Source: Mucilaginibacter arboris
GTDB lineage: Bacteria > Bacteroidota > Bacteroidia > Sphingobacteriales > Sphingobacteriaceae
Direction: 5' to 3'
NCBI RefSeq assembly: GCF_009754915.1
Contig: NZ_WPIK01000008.1
Location: 1-64,000 of the forward strand
Length of the DNA stretch: 64,000 nucleotides
The notes under the pieces were generated by a model. It was not told where the DNA came from. It made no database searches and saw only the letters and a program-made list of their open reading frames with translations. The position numbers were made by a program, and so were the translations under genes. Numbering within the stretch: the stretch's first letter is position 1; every line of letters begins with the position of its first letter. Shown one piece after another: positions 4,869-23,844 of this stretch.

Positions 4869-4917
4869 GGTAACCCTGTAAATAAAAAAATATTTTTTTT
4901 TCGGAAAATGGGTTACA
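4869..4917. promoter_or_regulatory. inverted repeat between divergent lipoprotein and ECF sigma genes
   Basis: GTAACCC (4870-4876) and GGGTTAC (4910-4916) form a 7-bp inverted repeat separated by 33 AT-rich bases, in the only control region shared by the two divergent transcripts. It may be an operator or chance; the spacing is too long for a strong hairpin. Confidence 0.3.
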
Positions 4918-4938
4918 TTTTTGTACAAACTGTATTAA

Positions 4939-5508
4939 GTGGTGAGTTTAAAGATAAATAGTTCTGTACCAACCGACAGCGAAGATATACTTGGGATTTT
5001 AAACAACTCTCCGGATACTTTAAAGCGTATTTACAAAGTTCATTTTCCGATGATTTTGCAAATGGTATTGAATAACAATGGAAATGAGGAGGATGCAAAA
5101 GATATTTATCAGGAAAGCATCATTATATTATATAACAAAGTTAAAGCAGGCGATTTTGAACTAACCAGCAAGCTAAAAACGTATATCTATTCGGTTTGCA
5201 GGCGTATTTGGTTAAAAAAATTAAACCAGCGGAGTAAAAAGGATGTCGAATTAAAAGAGATACATGATTATCTGCCTGTTGAAAATGACTTGGAAATGCA
5301 CGAAATGCGCGACTTGCAATTTAGCAAAATGGAAGAATCCATGCTGATGCTCGGCGAACCTTGCAGGACCATTATCCAGGATTTTTACATGCAAAACAAA
5401 TCTATGCAGGAGATTTGTGACAAGTTTGGTTATACCAATCCTGAAAATGCAAAAACGCAGAAATATAAATGCCTGCAACGGTTAAAAAAGCTGTTTTTTC
5501 AGCTATAA
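4939..5508 (+). CDS. ECF-type RNA polymerase sigma factor
   Basis: 189 aa, starting at GTG 4939 (a second GTG follows directly; no ATG fits). Region 2 spans about residues 25-95 and includes the acidic EEDAKDIYQESIIILY segment and LKTYIYSVCRRIW, which resembles the -10 binding helix. Region 4 lies at about 125-185 with the helix-turn-helix MQEICDKFGYTNPENAKTQK. No regions 1 or 3, as in ECF sigma factors. Only 12 bases separate it from the membrane protease that has an anti-sigma-like cytoplasmic part, so the pair probably forms one regulatory unit. Confidence 0.88.
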   Translation: MVSLKINSSVPTDSEDILGILNNSPDTLKRIYKVHFPMILQMVLNNNGNEEDAKDIYQESIIILYNKVKAGDFELTSKLKTYIYSVCRRIWLKKLNQRSKKDVELKEIHDYLPVENDLEMHEMRDLQFSKMEESMLMLGEPCRTIIQDFYMQNKSMQEICDKFGYTNPENAKTQKYKCLQRLKKLFFQL

Positions 5509-5520
5509 ATATTGAAGAAG

Positions 5521-6618
5521 ATGAACGAGCCACAATTACTTGATTTGATTGAAAGATACCTCGGCCATGAGCTTTCTGGGCAAGAGCAGATTGAGTTTGA
5601 ACGGATGCGCAAAAGCGATGCAGTAATAAATAATCGCATTAAAGAGCATCAGCAGTTTTTAAAATATATGGCCGATTGGAACGAGCGTTTGGAATTTGAA
5701 AATACCTTAAATGCCATCCACGAAGAAATTGATGTAGATGCTGTTAAAGAAAAACTTGGCCTTCGTCAGGGCCGTGTGGTTACTTTATGGCGCAACCATC
5801 ATTCAAAAATTTCGGTTGCTGCTTCTGTAGCCATTTTTGCGGTAATGCTTACTTTGTTTTTTACCGGTTATTTTAATAATCAAAACCAGCAATCAAAATA
5901 TAGCGCTTTACGACGCGATTTAGAAACCGTTAAGCGGTCTCAAAATGCTTTGATCCGGGATATAACAGGAAAATCTGCCCGCAAAAAAAACCTTAATCCC
6001 GGTGATTTTGGCGGAACCGGATTTGCCATTAATACCAACGGTGATATTATTACTAATTTTCATGTGATAAACGGAGCTGATTCTGTTTATGTACAAAACT
6101 CTAACGGCGATTCTTACAAAGCAGTTGCTGTTTATACCAATGCCGATTATGACCTGGCGGTTTTACATATCACCGATACTTCTTTTAAACGGTTAAGTGC
6201 AGTGCCTTATGCTTTCAAAAAATCAAAAGCGGATTTAGGCGAAGATGTATTTACGCTGGGTTATCCGAAAGATTCTGTAGTAATTGGTAAAGGTTATTTA
6301 AGTTCTTTTACCGGTTATGATAATGATTCTCTGGCTTACCAGGTTTCTATTCCGGTTAACCCTGGCAACAGCGGTGGCCCGCTTTTGGATAGTTACGGAA
6401 ACGTAATCGGGATCATCAAAGGCAAACAAACCCAGGTTGATGGTGCTGCTTTTGCTACAAAATCCAGTTATTTAATGAAAGCTATCCAGGAAATGCCTGC
6501 TGATTCTACCGGCAAAAAAATTGTTTTAAACAGTAAAAACAGCATGTCTAAACTCACCCGTTCGCAGCAAATTAAAAAACTGCAGAACTACGTTTTTATG
6601 GTGAAGGTTTATAATTGA
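5521..6618 (+). CDS. membrane-anchored trypsin-like serine protease with anti-sigma-like N-terminus
   Basis: 365 aa from the ATG at 5521; a TTG at 5512 could add three residues. Residues 1-95 are charged and helical, resembling the cytoplasmic part of Bacteroidota anti-sigma factors. One membrane segment lies at about 97-117. A trypsin-fold protease follows (about 160-330) with the triad H181 (TNFHVING), D211 (NADYDLAVLHI) and S284 (NPGNSGGPLLD), as in S1C/DegP proteases, but with no PDZ domain visible. The likely topology is N-in with the protease in the periplasm. Its position right behind an ECF sigma gene suggests it restrains that sigma factor; this is inference. Confidence 0.85.
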   Translation: MNEPQLLDLIERYLGHELSGQEQIEFERMRKSDAVINNRIKEHQQFLKYMADWNERLEFENTLNAIHEEIDVDAVKEKLGLRQGRVVTLWRNHHSKISVAASVAIFAVMLTLFFTGYFNNQNQQSKYSALRRDLETVKRSQNALIRDITGKSARKKNLNPGDFGGTGFAINTNGDIITNFHVINGADSVYVQNSNGDSYKAVAVYTNADYDLAVLHITDTSFKRLSAVPYAFKKSKADLGEDVFTLGYPKDSVVIGKGYLSSFTGYDNDSLAYQVSIPVNPGNSGGPLLDSYGNVIGIIKGKQTQVDGAAFATKSSYLMKAIQEMPADSTGKKIVLNSKNSMSKLTRSQQIKKLQNYVFMVKVYN

Positions 6619-18163: not shown

Positions 18164-19120
18164 ATGTCTCAGCCACAGCAAACTACTTACACCAATCCGG
18201 TTATCAATGCCGATTTTCCAGACCCTTCTGTAATTTATGTTCCCGGTGATGGTTATTATGCTTATGCTACGCATGATGAGTTTTCGCCAACGATCAATAA
18301 TATTCAGGTTTCTAAATCAGTAGATTTAGTTAACTGGTCGGAGCCGGAAGGCGCGTTGGCAGAGCCGCCCGTTTGGGCTAAAAATTGTCATAAATATTGG
18401 GCGCCACAAGTTGTAAAGGTTGGCAACCAATATCGGTTATATTATGCTGCAGAGCCAGATACGAAAGATGGGATGTGCCTGGCAATGGCTGTTTCTGAAC
18501 GGCCTTACCATTTTTTGGATATGGGTAAACCATTGGCACAAGTGCCAGGCTCTACTTACCAGATGATTGACCCATGCTTCTTTTATGACACTAAAACTGG
18601 TAAGAACCTGTTGTATTATGGCTCGGCGCATGAACCAATCCGTGTGGTTGAAGTTGCAGATGACGGCTATTCTTTCATTAGCAAACCAATTGTTGTGTTA
18701 AATACAAAACCGGGAGTGCAGTACGAAAGCCTTCGCGAAGGTGCTTTTGTAACTTACCAGTCCAGTTACGACCGTTATTTTTTATGGGTTTCGGGCGATA
18801 ATACCTGGGCAGAAAACGGTTATGCCGTAAGTATTTTTTGGTCTGATGATCCACAGAAAGAATTTCAGCCTGTCCCCGGCAATCATATAATTTTAAAACC
18901 CAATGAACAATGGGATTCACCTGGTCAAAATTGTATTTTAACAGATGAAGCAGGTAACGATTGGATAATGTACCATGCCGTAGACCCTGCAGATCGTTTT
19001 AATGAAGGAACAGATCATTTTAAACGTAAAATGTGTATGGACAGGGTTTTTTATAATGAAGAAGGCTGGCCAGAAGTAGAAGGGAACTCGCCATCATTTA
19101 CCAAAGTTGATTTATCCTAA
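18164..19120 (+). CDS. glycoside hydrolase family 43 protein
   Basis: 318 aa with the GH43 five-bladed fold. The catalytic-base Asp lies in NADFPDPSVIY (about 15-25), a WAPQVVKVGNQYRLYY blade follows, then MIDPCFFYD with the second conserved Asp, and EGAFVTY supplies the probable general acid Glu. Relatives are arabinanases, arabinofuranosidases and xylosidases; the exact substrate cannot be named. There is no signal peptide, so it should act in the cytoplasm. An exact repeat element is embedded in the PCFFYDTKT codons. Confidence 0.88.
   Translation: MSQPQQTTYTNPVINADFPDPSVIYVPGDGYYAYATHDEFSPTINNIQVSKSVDLVNWSEPEGALAEPPVWAKNCHKYWAPQVVKVGNQYRLYYAAEPDTKDGMCLAMAVSERPYHFLDMGKPLAQVPGSTYQMIDPCFFYDTKTGKNLLYYGSAHEPIRVVEVADDGYSFISKPIVVLNTKPGVQYESLREGAFVTYQSSYDRYFLWVSGDNTWAENGYAVSIFWSDDPQKEFQPVPGNHIILKPNEQWDSPGQNCILTDEAGNDWIMYHAVDPADRFNEGTDHFKRKMCMDRVFYNEEGWPEVEGNSPSFTKVDLS
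18574..18597 (+). repeat. ATGCTTCTTTTA element inside the GH43 gene
   Basis: An exact core at 18574-18585, spacer TGACAC, right half TAAAA. It encodes CFFYDTKT at a family-conserved position, so here the motif probably rests on pre-existing codons rather than an insertion. Confidence 0.8.
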
Positions 19121-19298: not shown

Positions 19299-20171
19299 AT
19301 GGTAAAAAAATATTTACCCTTACTGCGTGTTTCTCATTACTTAAAAAACTTTTATATTTTTTTACCTCTTTTTTTCTCTGGAGAAATACTAATTTCAGAA
19401 AAGCTTTTTAAATCATTACCAGTATTTTTTTCTTTCTGTTTGGTTGCAAGTTCCATTTATATTTTTAACGATTTAATGGATATCGAGTTTGACTTAAAAC
19501 ATCCGATAAAAAAGAATAGGCCTATACCATCCGGAATGATATCCAAGTTTGAAGCTTATTTTTTAACTTTTATATTATTTTTTACTGCAGTAGCGATAGC
19601 TTATACGGTTTCTTCAAAGGTATTAATTGTTATAATAGGCTATTTTTTATTGAATATACTCTATTCAGTTAAGCTTAAAAATTTTGCTTTAATTGATGTA
19701 ACCATAGTTAGTATTGGGTTTAATTTAAGGGTAATAGCAGGTGGCCTTGCTACTGGTATAATCATAAGTAAATGGCTTATGGTTATGGTTTTTTTACTGT
19801 CCATGTTCCAAGCTCTTTCTAAAAGAATGGATGATTTGTATTTAATGGCTAAAGATAGTAATAGTCAGTTAAGAAGATCTATTCATGGATATAATATTGA
19901 GTTTCTACAAATAGTTTTATCTATGCTGACAGGGGTTTTGTTAGTATGTTATATCATGTACATCATATCTCCTGAAATTATTTTTAGGCTTGGGGAATAT
20001 TCTTATTTTACCACGGTGTTTGTTTTACTTGGATTGCTTCGGTATCTGCAGTTTACATTTGTAAAAAAAGCAAGTGGTTCACCGGTAAAAATATTAAGTA
20101 ATGATAAATTCATACAATTGTGCATTTTGTTTTGGCTAATAACTTTTGCAACTTTAATATATTTAAAATGA
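19299..20171 (+). CDS. UbiA-family prenyltransferase, decaprenyl-phosphate phosphoribosyltransferase-like
   Basis: 290 aa, about eight or nine membrane segments. The first Asp-rich motif is NDLMDIEFDLKHPIKKNRPI (about 66-85). The second region has YSVKLKN, IGFNLRVIAGGLATGIIISKW and ALSKRMDDL. This spacing, including HPxKxxRPI and LRxIAGG, resembles DPPR synthases, which move 5-phosphoribosyl onto decaprenyl phosphate. Its stop overlaps the next start as ATGA, so it heads an operon with two polytopic proteins and a HAD phosphatase. Substrate assignment is inference from motifs. Confidence 0.82.
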   Translation: MVKKYLPLLRVSHYLKNFYIFLPLFFSGEILISEKLFKSLPVFFSFCLVASSIYIFNDLMDIEFDLKHPIKKNRPIPSGMISKFEAYFLTFILFFTAVAIAYTVSSKVLIVIIGYFLLNILYSVKLKNFALIDVTIVSIGFNLRVIAGGLATGIIISKWLMVMVFLLSMFQALSKRMDDLYLMAKDSNSQLRRSIHGYNIEFLQIVLSMLTGVLLVCYIMYIISPEIIFRLGEYSYFTTVFVLLGLLRYLQFTFVKKASGSPVKILSNDKFIQLCILFWLITFATLIYLK

Positions 20172-21658
20172 ACAGAACAATAATCGGAATTTTTGTAGGT
20201 ACAACTGTTTTGTATGCTATTTTATCACTAATATTTGCAATAAATGGTTTCCCGTGTTTTTTTCAAGATGCCCTTTGCTTTCTGCCCACTTCTTACTTTA
20301 TCAACCACCAGCACCAGTTGATAAACCCACTTTATGATGCTGGTATTGACCCTATCACCCACAAATTTCTGTTTTACCCGCCCTTGTTTCCTTATTCTGT
20401 TGCAATGATCTGTAAACTACTTCCGGATAATTATAATCAGATTCATATTGCATTAACTCTCATAGATATTTGCAGCATTATTATAATGTTAAAAAGTGCT
20501 TATATCTACATTAAAAAAAGCAATATAAATTATAATTTCTATTTGTACCTTTTTTTAATCATTTGGACAGTTGCATTATTTTCATTCCATGGAGTATTTG
20601 ATGGAAGGCCGGAAATCCTTTCAGATTTTTTTATTGCTTGTTTTATACTAAATAACATATGTAAGGACAAACGTTTTTTTAATTTTATTAATGGAGCCCT
20701 GATCGGATTAAATGCAATTAATTCACCTATATCAACTTTTTACCTGGTTATAATTACTGCTGGGATTATTTTTTATAATAACAATCTTAGAGCAAAATCC
20801 ATAATACAAACTGTAACGGGCTTTGTGATTATATTCGGTTGTTTTGCATTAGTTTATCCATATCATTTAATAGACCTATTTCAAGGTTTGATAAAACACT
20901 CAACCCATGTTGTGGTAAACAGGGCAGAAGCGGCAGAAGTAGCAACAGACTGGTTAAAATGGATACAAGAGGTACGAGGTATGTATTTTATAACTCCATT
21001 TCATGTTTTAGCTGGAGTTAGCTTTTTAGTTTCTATTTTTTATACACTTTTTTTGCTAATAAAGCAAAAAAAAGTTATCTCAATTTTATGCTTTATTTTA
21101 CTGTTTGCATTAATAGATTATTTTGCATTTAAAAATGTGCTTATGTCTTATAACACGTATGTTTTGTCGCCTATATATATGTTTGTATTGCTGGTGCTTT
21201 TTATAGATATACTTAATAAAAAAATTCTTGTCACCGTTTCAAATACTTCTGTTTGGATTTTAGTTATACTTCTTTTTATTAATTCACTTGGCCTCTTTCG
21301 TACAGCTTTAATGTTTTTTAGTACACAGGATAAAAAAGTACCTATTAATGAGGTTGGAAAAGAAATAAATTTTTTAAGTAAAAAACTAAAAAAGGATAAA
21401 AAAATTTATATCACTTTTTCACTATGGCCACCTGCTCTCGATAAAGCAAATTCTGTAGTTTCATACACCCCAATGGATAATCCAGTAATTCAATTTATTA
21501 TTTTACAACAAAGTAATTCTGGTCAAAATGTAGCCCCTCAAATAGCTGGCTTTAAATTAATTAAAAACGGATTTATTCCAGAACATCCAAAATTTGGAAA
21601 AATTCAAATTGGAAATACGTATCCTTATTATCAAACAGCTATTTATGAAAAAGAATAG
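20168..21658 (+). CDS. polytopic membrane protein, GT-C-like, paralogue A
   Basis: 496 aa from the ATG at 20168, overlapping the UbiA stop. About ten membrane segments. A conserved extracytoplasmic-looking loop holds NPLYDAGIDP-THKFLFYPPLFP (about 52-73), and FHGVFDGRPEILSDFFIACF follows at about 138-157. The layout (long first loop with acidic residues, many helices, C-terminal soluble tail) is that of GT-C glycosyltransferases that use polyprenyl-phosphate sugars. No named family is recognised. It shares extensive identity with the next gene. Confidence 0.72.
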   Translation: MNRTIIGIFVGTTVLYAILSLIFAINGFPCFFQDALCFLPTSYFINHQHQLINPLYDAGIDPITHKFLFYPPLFPYSVAMICKLLPDNYNQIHIALTLIDICSIIIMLKSAYIYIKKSNINYNFYLYLFLIIWTVALFSFHGVFDGRPEILSDFFIACFILNNICKDKRFFNFINGALIGLNAINSPISTFYLVIITAGIIFYNNNLRAKSIIQTVTGFVIIFGCFALVYPYHLIDLFQGLIKHSTHVVVNRAEAAEVATDWLKWIQEVRGMYFITPFHVLAGVSFLVSIFYTLFLLIKQKKVISILCFILLFALIDYFAFKNVLMSYNTYVLSPIYMFVLLVLFIDILNKKILVTVSNTSVWILVILLFINSLGLFRTALMFFSTQDKKVPINEVGKEINFLSKKLKKDKKIYITFSLWPPALDKANSVVSYTPMDNPVIQFIILQQSNSGQNVAPQIAGFKLIKNGFIPEHPKFGKIQIGNTYPYYQTAIYEKE

Positions 21659-21791
21659 CATGCTCGATAATCATCTTTGTCAAAATATTTTGTATGGACT
21701 TTAACAGGAAAAGTTAATCGAATTATAATTTTGATATTCAATAAAATTAAATTATTGTTTATAGCTTATCTTTAAACTTTCTCTATAATAA

Positions 21792-23252
21792 ATGAAAATA
21801 TCTTTAAAGCTATTTCTAACAATAATCGTTACAACATATTCGTATCTAACATTTCTATTTGCCTTTAATGGTTATCCCGGATTCATCCAGGATTCTACTT
21901 GTTTTTTACCTACGGCTTATTTCATCAACCATTATCATCAGCTAATCAATCCGTTATATGATGCAGGTATTGATCCTATTCAACATAGGTTTTTGTTTTA
22001 TCCGCCTTTATTTCCCTGGGCAGTTGCCTTTATCAATAATTTGATGCCTGAGTTTTACAATAATATGCAGGTAACGTTGGCTTTTATAGATATTTTAGGA
22101 ATAATTGTTCTTATAATTAGCGTTTGGGTTTATTCCAGGAAAACAAATTTGAAACAACCTTCCGGTTTGCTTCTGTTTTCAGTGATTTGGCTTTTAGCTT
22201 TGTTTTCCTTTTACGGCGTGCAAGAAGGAAGGCCGGAAGTTTTGTGTAAGTTTTTTATCGCTTGTTTTCTTTTAAACAATGTTTATCAAAGTAAACGTTT
22301 TTGCAATTTTAACAATGGTTTGCTGGTTGCATTAAATTTGATTACTTCACCGGTTTCTACTTTTTATTTAATGCTTATTACCTTTGGTTTACTTGTATAT
22401 CGAAATGAGTTTAAATTAAAACCAATAGTACAAACACTAATTGGATTTGCAATTATATCAGGAATTTTTACAATTGTTTATCCATATCATCTTATCGAGT
22501 TGATAAAAGGTTTACAAAAGCATTCTCAAAATGTAATTGTTAACAGGTTCAGCACAGATTCTTTTAAAAACTTCATTACTTTCTATGTAACATATGCTTA
22601 CGCACCTTTGTTAATATTTAACTTTTTAATCACCATTATTTATACAGCTTATGTTTTGATTAAAAAATATAAAATTTTGTCATTGGTTTTACTTGCGATC
22701 CTAACTTGTTTGGTTAGCTACTTTTCTTTTAAAGATATGCCCATGAATTATAACATGCTTGTACTTTCGCCTGTTTTTTTCTTTGTCATATTTGTAATGT
22801 TTAGCCATATAAATAATATCGATAAAAGAAGCATGCTATCAAAAGTATCGCCAGTAATGATCGTTGTTTTATTGTGTATTAATTCTGTAGGTTTTATACG
22901 CAAAACATTGCTTTTTTACACAACTAAAAATGAAAAGGTATCTTACCTGGATTTTAGAAAAGAATTTATAGGGGTAACTAATCACACAAATAGTCATAAA
23001 AAGGTTTGTATTACTTTTTCGTTATGGCCATATTGTTTAGATCAATATCAACATATCACCTTAAACATGACGGATACTTCTATCCAGTATTTAATGTTGC
23101 AGCAATTGTACTCTGGAGTTAGCGAACCTCAGCCACAAACAAACTTTCATTTAGTTAAAAACAATTTCATCATCAAACATCCAAAGCTTTGGAAAATACC
23201 TTTAGGCAACACTTATCCCTGGTTTCAAACAGCTACTTATGAACGAAAGTAA
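21792..23252 (+). CDS. polytopic membrane protein, GT-C-like, paralogue B
   Basis: 486 aa. It repeats the layout of the preceding gene: INPLYDAGIDPIQHRFLFYP (about 56-75), FYGVQEGRPEVLCKFFIACF and the C-terminal GNTYPWFQTATYERK (compare IGNTYPYYQTAIYEKE in A). The two thus arose by tandem duplication. An exact repeat element (22823-22834, reverse) encodes IDKRSML in a loop between helices. The 3' end overlaps the HAD gene by 14 bases. Same functional guess and uncertainty as paralogue A. Confidence 0.72.
   Translation: MKISLKLFLTIIVTTYSYLTFLFAFNGYPGFIQDSTCFLPTAYFINHYHQLINPLYDAGIDPIQHRFLFYPPLFPWAVAFINNLMPEFYNNMQVTLAFIDILGIIVLIISVWVYSRKTNLKQPSGLLLFSVIWLLALFSFYGVQEGRPEVLCKFFIACFLLNNVYQSKRFCNFNNGLLVALNLITSPVSTFYLMLITFGLLVYRNEFKLKPIVQTLIGFAIISGIFTIVYPYHLIELIKGLQKHSQNVIVNRFSTDSFKNFITFYVTYAYAPLLIFNFLITIIYTAYVLIKKYKILSLVLLAILTCLVSYFSFKDMPMNYNMLVLSPVFFFVIFVMFSHINNIDKRSMLSKVSPVMIVVLLCINSVGFIRKTLLFYTTKNEKVSYLDFRKEFIGVTNHTNSHKKVCITFSLWPYCLDQYQHITLNMTDTSIQYLMLQQLYSGVSEPQPQTNFHLVKNNFIIKHPKLWKIPLGNTYPWFQTATYERK
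22815..22834 (-). repeat. ATGCTTCTTTTA element inside GT-C-like paralogue B
   Basis: An exact reverse core at 22823-22834, encoding DKRSM in a loop. Paralogue A has no such copy at the matching place, which dates this copy after the duplication or its loss from A. Confidence 0.8.
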
Positions 23253-23844
23253 AAGTATTGCTTTTTTTGATTTTGACGGAACAATAACCAACAGGGATAT
23301 TTTTTGGGATTATACTTTTTTCAGGTTAAAAAATGGTTTATCCTTTTTTAAATTAATTAAAAGTATTCCTGATTTTACTTTATACTTATTTAAAGTTTTA
23401 AATAACGAACAAGCCAAACAAAGAATTTTTGGTAAGTTATTTAAAGGCGAAACAATAATTTTTTTTAATCGCACAGTTAGCAGCTATTACGCATCTTATC
23501 TTTACAAAAGAATAAAAAAGGATGCCTTAGACAGAATTAACTGGCATAAAAACAGTAACCATACCGTTTGCATTGTAAGCGCAAACTTCGATTTACTGTT
23601 ACAGGATTTTGCAGAAAATAATAAGTTAAAATTAATTGCTACCCGGTTACAAATCGAGAACAATATAATAACCGGAAAATTTGCAACCCGAAATTGTTAC
23701 GGAATAGAGAAAGCAAACAGGATAAAAGATATTTTTCCCGACTTAAATTCCTATTCGCAAATCTACGCTTACGGTGATAGTAAAGGCGATCTGGAAATGC
23801 TTGAATTAGCTTCAGAAAAGTTTTATTGCTTCTTTAAAAAGTAA
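23239..23844 (+). CDS. HAD-IB phosphatase
   Basis: 201 aa. The nucleophile motif is FFDFDGTITNRD (D11 and D13), the second motif lies around IVSAN (about 112-116), and the metal-binding motif is YGDSKGDLEMLELA near the C-terminus. A helical cap lies between residues 20 and 90. HAD-IB members include phosphoserine phosphatases. The overlap with the GT-C gene and presence of a DPPR-synthase-like UbiA suggest a lipid-linked sugar phosphate as substrate, as proposed for phosphatases beside DPPR synthase in mycobacteria. That is inference. Confidence 0.82.
   Translation: MNESKSIAFFDFDGTITNRDIFWDYTFFRLKNGLSFFKLIKSIPDFTLYLFKVLNNEQAKQRIFGKLFKGETIIFFNRTVSSYYASYLYKRIKKDALDRINWHKNSNHTVCIVSANFDLLLQDFAENNKLKLIATRLQIENNIITGKFATRNCYGIEKANRIKDIFPDLNSYSQIYAYGDSKGDLEMLELASEKFYCFFKK

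Follow-up and report, generated by a model that had tools for sequence, protein, structure and literature searches.

The window, by which we mean the whole 64,000-nucleotide stretch of Mucilaginibacter arboris DNA that was analysed, contains a compact AT-rich operon of four genes on the + strand (19299-23844). The four-gene block of the preliminary description was recovered in full, in the order UbiA, GT-C-like A, GT-C-like B and HAD. Its features are as follows:

19299..20171, + strand: UbiA, predicted polyprenyl-phosphate phosphoribosyltransferase (DPPR-synthase class), 290 aa (NF008977 E=5e-63, 8j8j, structure model)
20168..21658, + strand: GT-C-like polytopic protein A, putative lipid-linked pentose transferase, 496 aa (family alignment, hydropathy)
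21659..21791, + strand: spacer between GT-C-like A and B, 133 bases, holding a match to TTAACA-N17-TATAAT
21792..23252, + strand: GT-C-like polytopic protein B, the copy kept in the genus (66-69% identity), 486 aa
23239..23844, + strand: predicted HAD-IB phosphatase, 201 aa (TIGR01490 114 bits, cut-off 98.3)

The junctions were as tight as first described: the UbiA and A genes overlap by 4 bases and the B and HAD genes by 14 bases, and the only gap is that of 133 bases between A and B. The table of open reading frames places the start of A at GTG 20120. The true start is likely ATG 20168, which gives a protein of 496 aa; it is favoured by the alignment of homologues and by the ATGA in which it overlaps the stop codon of UbiA.

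The GC content of the operon genes is 0.28-0.30 (GC3 0.22-0.30), compared with 0.42 (GC3 0.35-0.37) in the flanking GH43 and rpsF genes, so that the block is indeed unlike its neighbours. As the gene of the soluble HAD protein is as AT-rich as those of the membrane proteins, the low GC content of the block is not just a membrane-protein effect. Promoter-like sites occur in the AT-rich region at about chance level, and this extends to the TTAACA-N17-TATAAT match in the 133-base spacer. The sole terminator-like site is located within the first GT-C gene (A).

Ribosomal genes lie next to the operon, and it is not surrounded by a glycan cluster. In each of the three genomes of the genus, the UbiA-GTC-HAD set stands between GH43 and rpsF. 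Where relatives lack the operon, dnaX adjoins rpsF directly (G011, G005) or with Uma2 between them (G001, G007). Because the dnaX-rpsF site is found there without them, we infer a probable insertion of GH43 and the operon in an ancestor of the genus. The GH43 glycosidase gene itself lies immediately upstream of the operon (window 18164-19120) and is kept with it in 3/3 genomes of the genus; its product could act on a pentose product.

The UbiA protein and the predicted HAD phosphatase

The Pfam match of UbiA was PF01040, the UbiA superfamily. In the comparison with NCBIfam, models of decaprenyl-phosphate phosphoribosyltransferase came out on top with 213, 170 and 148 bits, the first of these being slightly short of the curated cut-off of 234 for NF008977, and the HAD-UbiA model NF006088 gave 163 bits. 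Meanwhile, haem o synthase reached 41 bits and ubiquinone UbiA / 4-hydroxybenzoate octaprenyltransferase 33 bits. The alignment with PDB 8j8j, the mycobacterial DPPR synthase (E=1e-36, residues 33-285), paired the motifs NDxxDxxxD, HPxKxxRPI, LRxIAGG and SKW. The two motifs noticed at the outset, HPxKxxRPI and LRxIAGG, were located as HPIKKNRPI at residues 68-76 and LRVIAGG at residues 143-149. The NDxxDxxxD, HPxKxxRP and loop IV R/E(D) residues of the DPPR-synthase class are all present, and N57, D58, D61, D65, H68, K71, R74, R176 and D179 showed no variation in 54 homologues. The NDxxDxxxD residues that Kelly et al. mutated in Citrobacter ORF15 (PMC11127046) are likewise invariant in the homologues of the window protein.

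The structure model of UbiA, built on the homologue set, reached a pLDDT of 90. It matched 8j8j best (VIA Z 31.5, rmsd 2.0, 285 residues), with the next UbiA structures at Z 21.8, and a Foldseek search with the model put 8j8j and 8j8k at the top. Structure prediction thus agreed with the proposed likeness to DPPR synthase, and the grouping with quinone or haem prenyltransferases, which had been named as the test of that proposal, was largely ruled out by the family scores and the fold. The family score, the match to a solved structure, the catalytic residues and the high-confidence model all place this protein in the DPPR-synthase class, as a polyprenyl-phosphate phosphoribosyltransferase of predicted activity.

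The HAD protein exceeds the cut-off of TIGR01490 (HAD-IB). Its DFDGT, GDxxGD and other catalytic residues are unvarying in 10 homologues encoded beside UbiA, and its profile could be aligned with the HAD part of a HAD-UbiA fusion (E=1.6e-7). Of 78 loci whose downstream sequence exceeds 4 kb, 66 have a HAD gene within 4 kb of UbiA on the same strand; HAD matches in the same loci number 9.2 per 100 kb at up to 4 kb from UbiA, against 0.5 elsewhere (18-fold). These counts come from a biased sample, mostly the closest relatives from one scan, in which L019/L028 and L022/L073 are each one contig counted twice. The HAD protein is proposed to act as a phosphatase on polyprenyl-P-ribose-5-phosphate. 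Removal of the 5-phosphate had been suggested in the preliminary description by analogy with mycobacteria. The HAD-IB type fits a Citrobacter-type system, whereas the analogy itself has to be given up, the mycobacterial phosphatase Rv3807c being unrelated to HAD (PMC11127046).

The proposed pathway and its sugar

We consider it probable that the operon makes and uses polyprenyl-phosphate-ribofuranose. This reading draws on what was observed, namely the gene set, the family, catalytic residues and predicted fold of UbiA, the HAD type, the co-conservation of the genes and the lack of a detectable DprE1, from which we infer the activities, the GT-C role, the flippase, the sugar and the acceptor. 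In the first step, UbiA would act on the cytoplasmic side, using PRPP to load ribose-5-phosphate onto polyprenyl phosphate, probably undecaprenyl phosphate. The HAD protein would take off the 5-phosphate, a flippase would carry the lipid-linked ribose to the periplasm, and the paralogous proteins A and B would use the lipid as donor of ribofuranose for one or two acceptors in the periplasm. As acceptor, a polysaccharide or lipooligosaccharide of the cell surface would be most likely, and a protein would be possible. The GT-C model (pLDDT 38), the lack of a linked flippase and the position of the operon outside a glycan cluster speak against this pathway.

No flippase of the MATE type, or of the SMR type used in mycobacteria, was found among the genes of the operon, and no ArnF-like protein was found in the genome at E<0.1. 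Unlike the window operon, UbiA-HAD of G063 and G082 is adjoined by an ArnF-like protein. The ArnF-like SMR proteins encoded straight after UbiA-HAD at L026 10989-11339 and L027 8593-8943 are candidate flippases for a lipid-linked pentose.

DprE1 was not found in the window genome, which is 99.3% complete in 83 contigs, so that a DprE1 in the unassembled fraction is unlikely but possible. The genome yielded no ALO domain, and the lone partial NF053785-like match was rejected as DprE1, since it is the glycolate oxidase GlcD. The DprE1 plus DprE2 pair of the DPA (arabinose) pathway is thus not found in this genome, and no epimerase gene is part of the UbiA operon in G277 or in the genomes of the genus. 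The UbiA tree groups the proteins of the window, of its genus and of G277 in a single clade (100/100), separate from the half with most DprE1-bearing loci. Because no DprE1 was detected, so that the sugar would stay ribose, and also because of this position in the tree, ribofuranose is most likely the sugar in the window genome. The original suggestion of a lipid-linked ribose or arabinose is supported as to the type of pathway, and its arabinose half is disfavoured by the lack of DprE1.

In many relatives, DprE1 (NF053785, 422 bits) and DprE2 (NF053786, 181 bits) are encoded between UbiA and HAD, with scores that are under the strict curated cut-offs yet clearly of those families, and arabinofuranose is predicted there. 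This pattern lends some weight to a variant in which the donor route is the same and an unlinked epimerase converts the lipid-linked ribose, the sugar transferred being arabinofuranose or xylofuranose. Such an enzyme could be of the SDR type, and ORF13 of Citrobacter O2, a different epimerase, turns Ribf into Xylf (PMC11127046). In view of the genome without DprE1 or an ALO domain and of the genus and G277 operons without an epimerase gene, we regard this variant as rather unlikely and keep to ribofuranose.

The GT-C-like proteins

Proteins A and B share 49% identity and are the sole proteins of their kind found in the genome. B occurs in each of the three genomes of the genus, and A is present in the window genome only (1/3). 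No family or structure was matched by either protein in Pfam, NCBIfam or the PDB. The profile of their family, searched against the solved structures and Pfam, gave nothing credible and no relation to any solved GT-C enzyme. The structure model of B, built from three aligned sequences, had a pLDDT of 38 and a pTM of 0.24 and was not used. In the tree of the family (seven rows), none of the forks was supported.

The hydropathy analysis indicated approximately nine membrane segments and a soluble C-terminus of ~115 residues. A loop of ~70 residues separates the first segment, near the N-terminus, from the others. D34, N53, Y56, R147-P148-E149, Y230-P231-Y232 and H244 are invariant in the seven members, down to 23% identity. 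This topology and the Asp in the first loop are compatible with a GT-C enzyme having its catalytic Asp in that loop. In a comparison with the published residues of GT136 (D31, E34, Y35, H106, R349, Y350; PMC11127046), the invariant Asp stands at a comparable place and is the only match to D31/E34/Y35, with C37-F38 at the position of E34-Y35. The two proteins are candidate GT-C enzymes on the grounds of topology, conserved residues and gene association. In agreement with the earlier designation, both are large polytopic proteins of GT-C-like topology.

The pair might instead be flippases or transporters, or a polymerase on the acceptor side, the transfer step being left to other proteins. Both the operon without a flippase and the failed model leave room for this, yet we hold it to be quite unlikely, as the N-terminal segment, the long D34 loop, the further segments and the soluble C-terminus suit GT-C over MATE/SMR proteins, and a large polytopic protein is also encoded close by in relatives of other architecture.

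The distribution of these proteins also favours the proposed pathway. The GT-C-like family was found in 5/350 genomes of the order, and its carriers outside the genus are G277, G025 and G345. A UbiA of the DPPR class is present in all three of these, as against 10/151 in the family sample. G277, which belongs to another genus, has the same UbiA-GTC-HAD operon (identities of 60%, 43% and 49%). Co-occurrence, the lack of which had been named beforehand as a refutation, was seen for UbiA, GT-C-like and HAD genes in 3/3 genomes of the genus and in G277, and this indicates that the grouping of the genes is not due to chance. In G345, a 490-aa HAD-UbiA fusion (NF006088, 403 bits) adjoins a 25%-identical GT-C-like protein, and both are set in a polysaccharide cluster with glycosyltransferases and an exporter-like gene; this layout resembles that of the Citrobacter HAD-UbiA enzyme. 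G025 has an orphan GT-C-like copy (L115 9298-10782) close to the gene of a sigma factor, and its UbiA-polytopic-HAD operon lies elsewhere. The polytopic partner in that operon differs from the GT-C family of the window. It is very improbable that the UbiA product is a quinone, haem or other prenylated aromatic and that the neighbours are incidental: superfamily membership (PF01040) would allow it, but scores and fold favour DPPR synthase widely, the HAD linkage is conserved, and the genome encodes another, distant UbiA homologue (L002).

Known systems and related modules in Bacteroidota

The closest published counterpart is the three-component system of Citrobacter youngae O1/O2, consisting of the HAD-UbiA fusion ORF15, the MATE protein ORF14 and the GT136 enzyme ORF12 (Kelly et al. 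2024, PMC11127046). It has been biochemically proven that its HAD-UbiA enzyme makes polyprenyl-P-ribofuranose from PRPP and that the GT-C enzyme (GT136) transfers ribofuranose; the MATE protein is a flippase by proposal (PMC11127046). In both systems, a UbiA-type polyprenyl phosphoribose synthase, a HAD phosphatase and a large polytopic protein are encoded together, with no DprE1/E2 where ribose is the product. Homologues of DprE1/E2 occur in systems for Araf-containing glycans (PMC11127046). The window operon differs in that its HAD protein is encoded by a separate gene, that it has no linked MATE gene, that its GT-C-like proteins are two in tandem and belong to an unnamed family, and that it lies outside an O-antigen or glycan cluster.

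With Rv3806c (8j8j) of the mycobacterial DPA pathway, the window protein shares the UbiA class, the predicted fold and the substrate-binding motifs. The pathways differ in the use of a HAD protein in the window, in DprE1/DprE2, which were not found there, and in A and B, which are unrelated to solved GT-C enzymes by profile search. The D-arabinofuranosylation of pilin in Pseudomonas paraeruginosa (PSPA7_6245-6251, TfpW; PMC12369383) and the arabinosylation of Nod factor by noeCNHOP (PMC5080398) are similar as small operons building a polyprenyl-linked pentose for a dedicated transferase, but these are arabinose systems with pilin and Nod factor as acceptors.

Within Bacteroidota, the UbiA-DprE1-DprE2-HAD modules of some Sphingobacteriaceae, at L021 (9439-13000), L022 and L023, and of the Chitinophagaceae loci L031-L046 form a predicted polyprenyl-P-arabinofuranose pathway, often with a divergently encoded large polytopic protein of ~560 aa. 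Their UbiA (~42-47% identity) and HAD (~35%) are homologous to those of the window. They differ in carrying DprE1 and DprE2 and in polytopic partners for which no relation was detected apart from a weak profile match: of five other groups of polytopic proteins near UbiA, only the Chitinophaga group matched the GT-C-like family, with a probability of 12-22%.

The preliminary description called the system uncharacterised. The type of pathway was proven in Citrobacter in 2024 (PMC11127046), and it is the Bacteroidota version that is new; the novelty is a variant and a transferase family, not a principle. The main text of PMC11127046 does not name Bacteroidota, Chitinophaga or Prevotella, and we found no other papers on such pentofuranose systems in Bacteroidota in the main texts of the open literature. 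On balance, we lean slightly towards a wider interpretation, in which the A/B pair would found a new family of GT-C enzymes that transfer ribofuranose, and the decoration of surface glycans with ribose or arabinose would be modular in Bacteroidota. It would rely on one conserved UbiA-HAD donor module, on optional DprE1/DprE2 and on GT-C partners of several sequence groups that are interchangeable and unrelated to each other. Lipid-linked pentofuranose decoration, known from mycobacteria, Citrobacter, Pseudomonas and rhizobia, is thus predicted in Bacteroidota as well, with carriers that include Chitinophaga and gut and rumen Prevotella-type organisms. The analysis offers candidate transferases that are missed by today's family models, as well as a testable rule for the sugar: arabinofuranose where DprE1 is present and ribofuranose where it is absent.

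Several further loci were recorded. L114 of G277 and L021, L022 and L023 share one chromosomal location, with ABC-F, pyrE-like and coaD-like genes close by; it holds UbiA-GTC-HAD in G277 and UbiA-DprE1-DprE2-HAD in L021-L023, as if the modules had been swapped. L025 (1575-9229) holds one UbiA-HAD pair amid four polytopic proteins of 570-589 aa. L123 (8533-15035), from another family of the phylum, encodes three tandem, very distant relatives of the GT-C family, with no UbiA on the stretch. Finally, MT837543.1, an unannotated 'Bacteriophage sp.' record of 6.6 kb that comes from human faeces, encodes a 43% identical UbiA at 4874-5749, which may be phage-borne or belong to a bacterial fragment.
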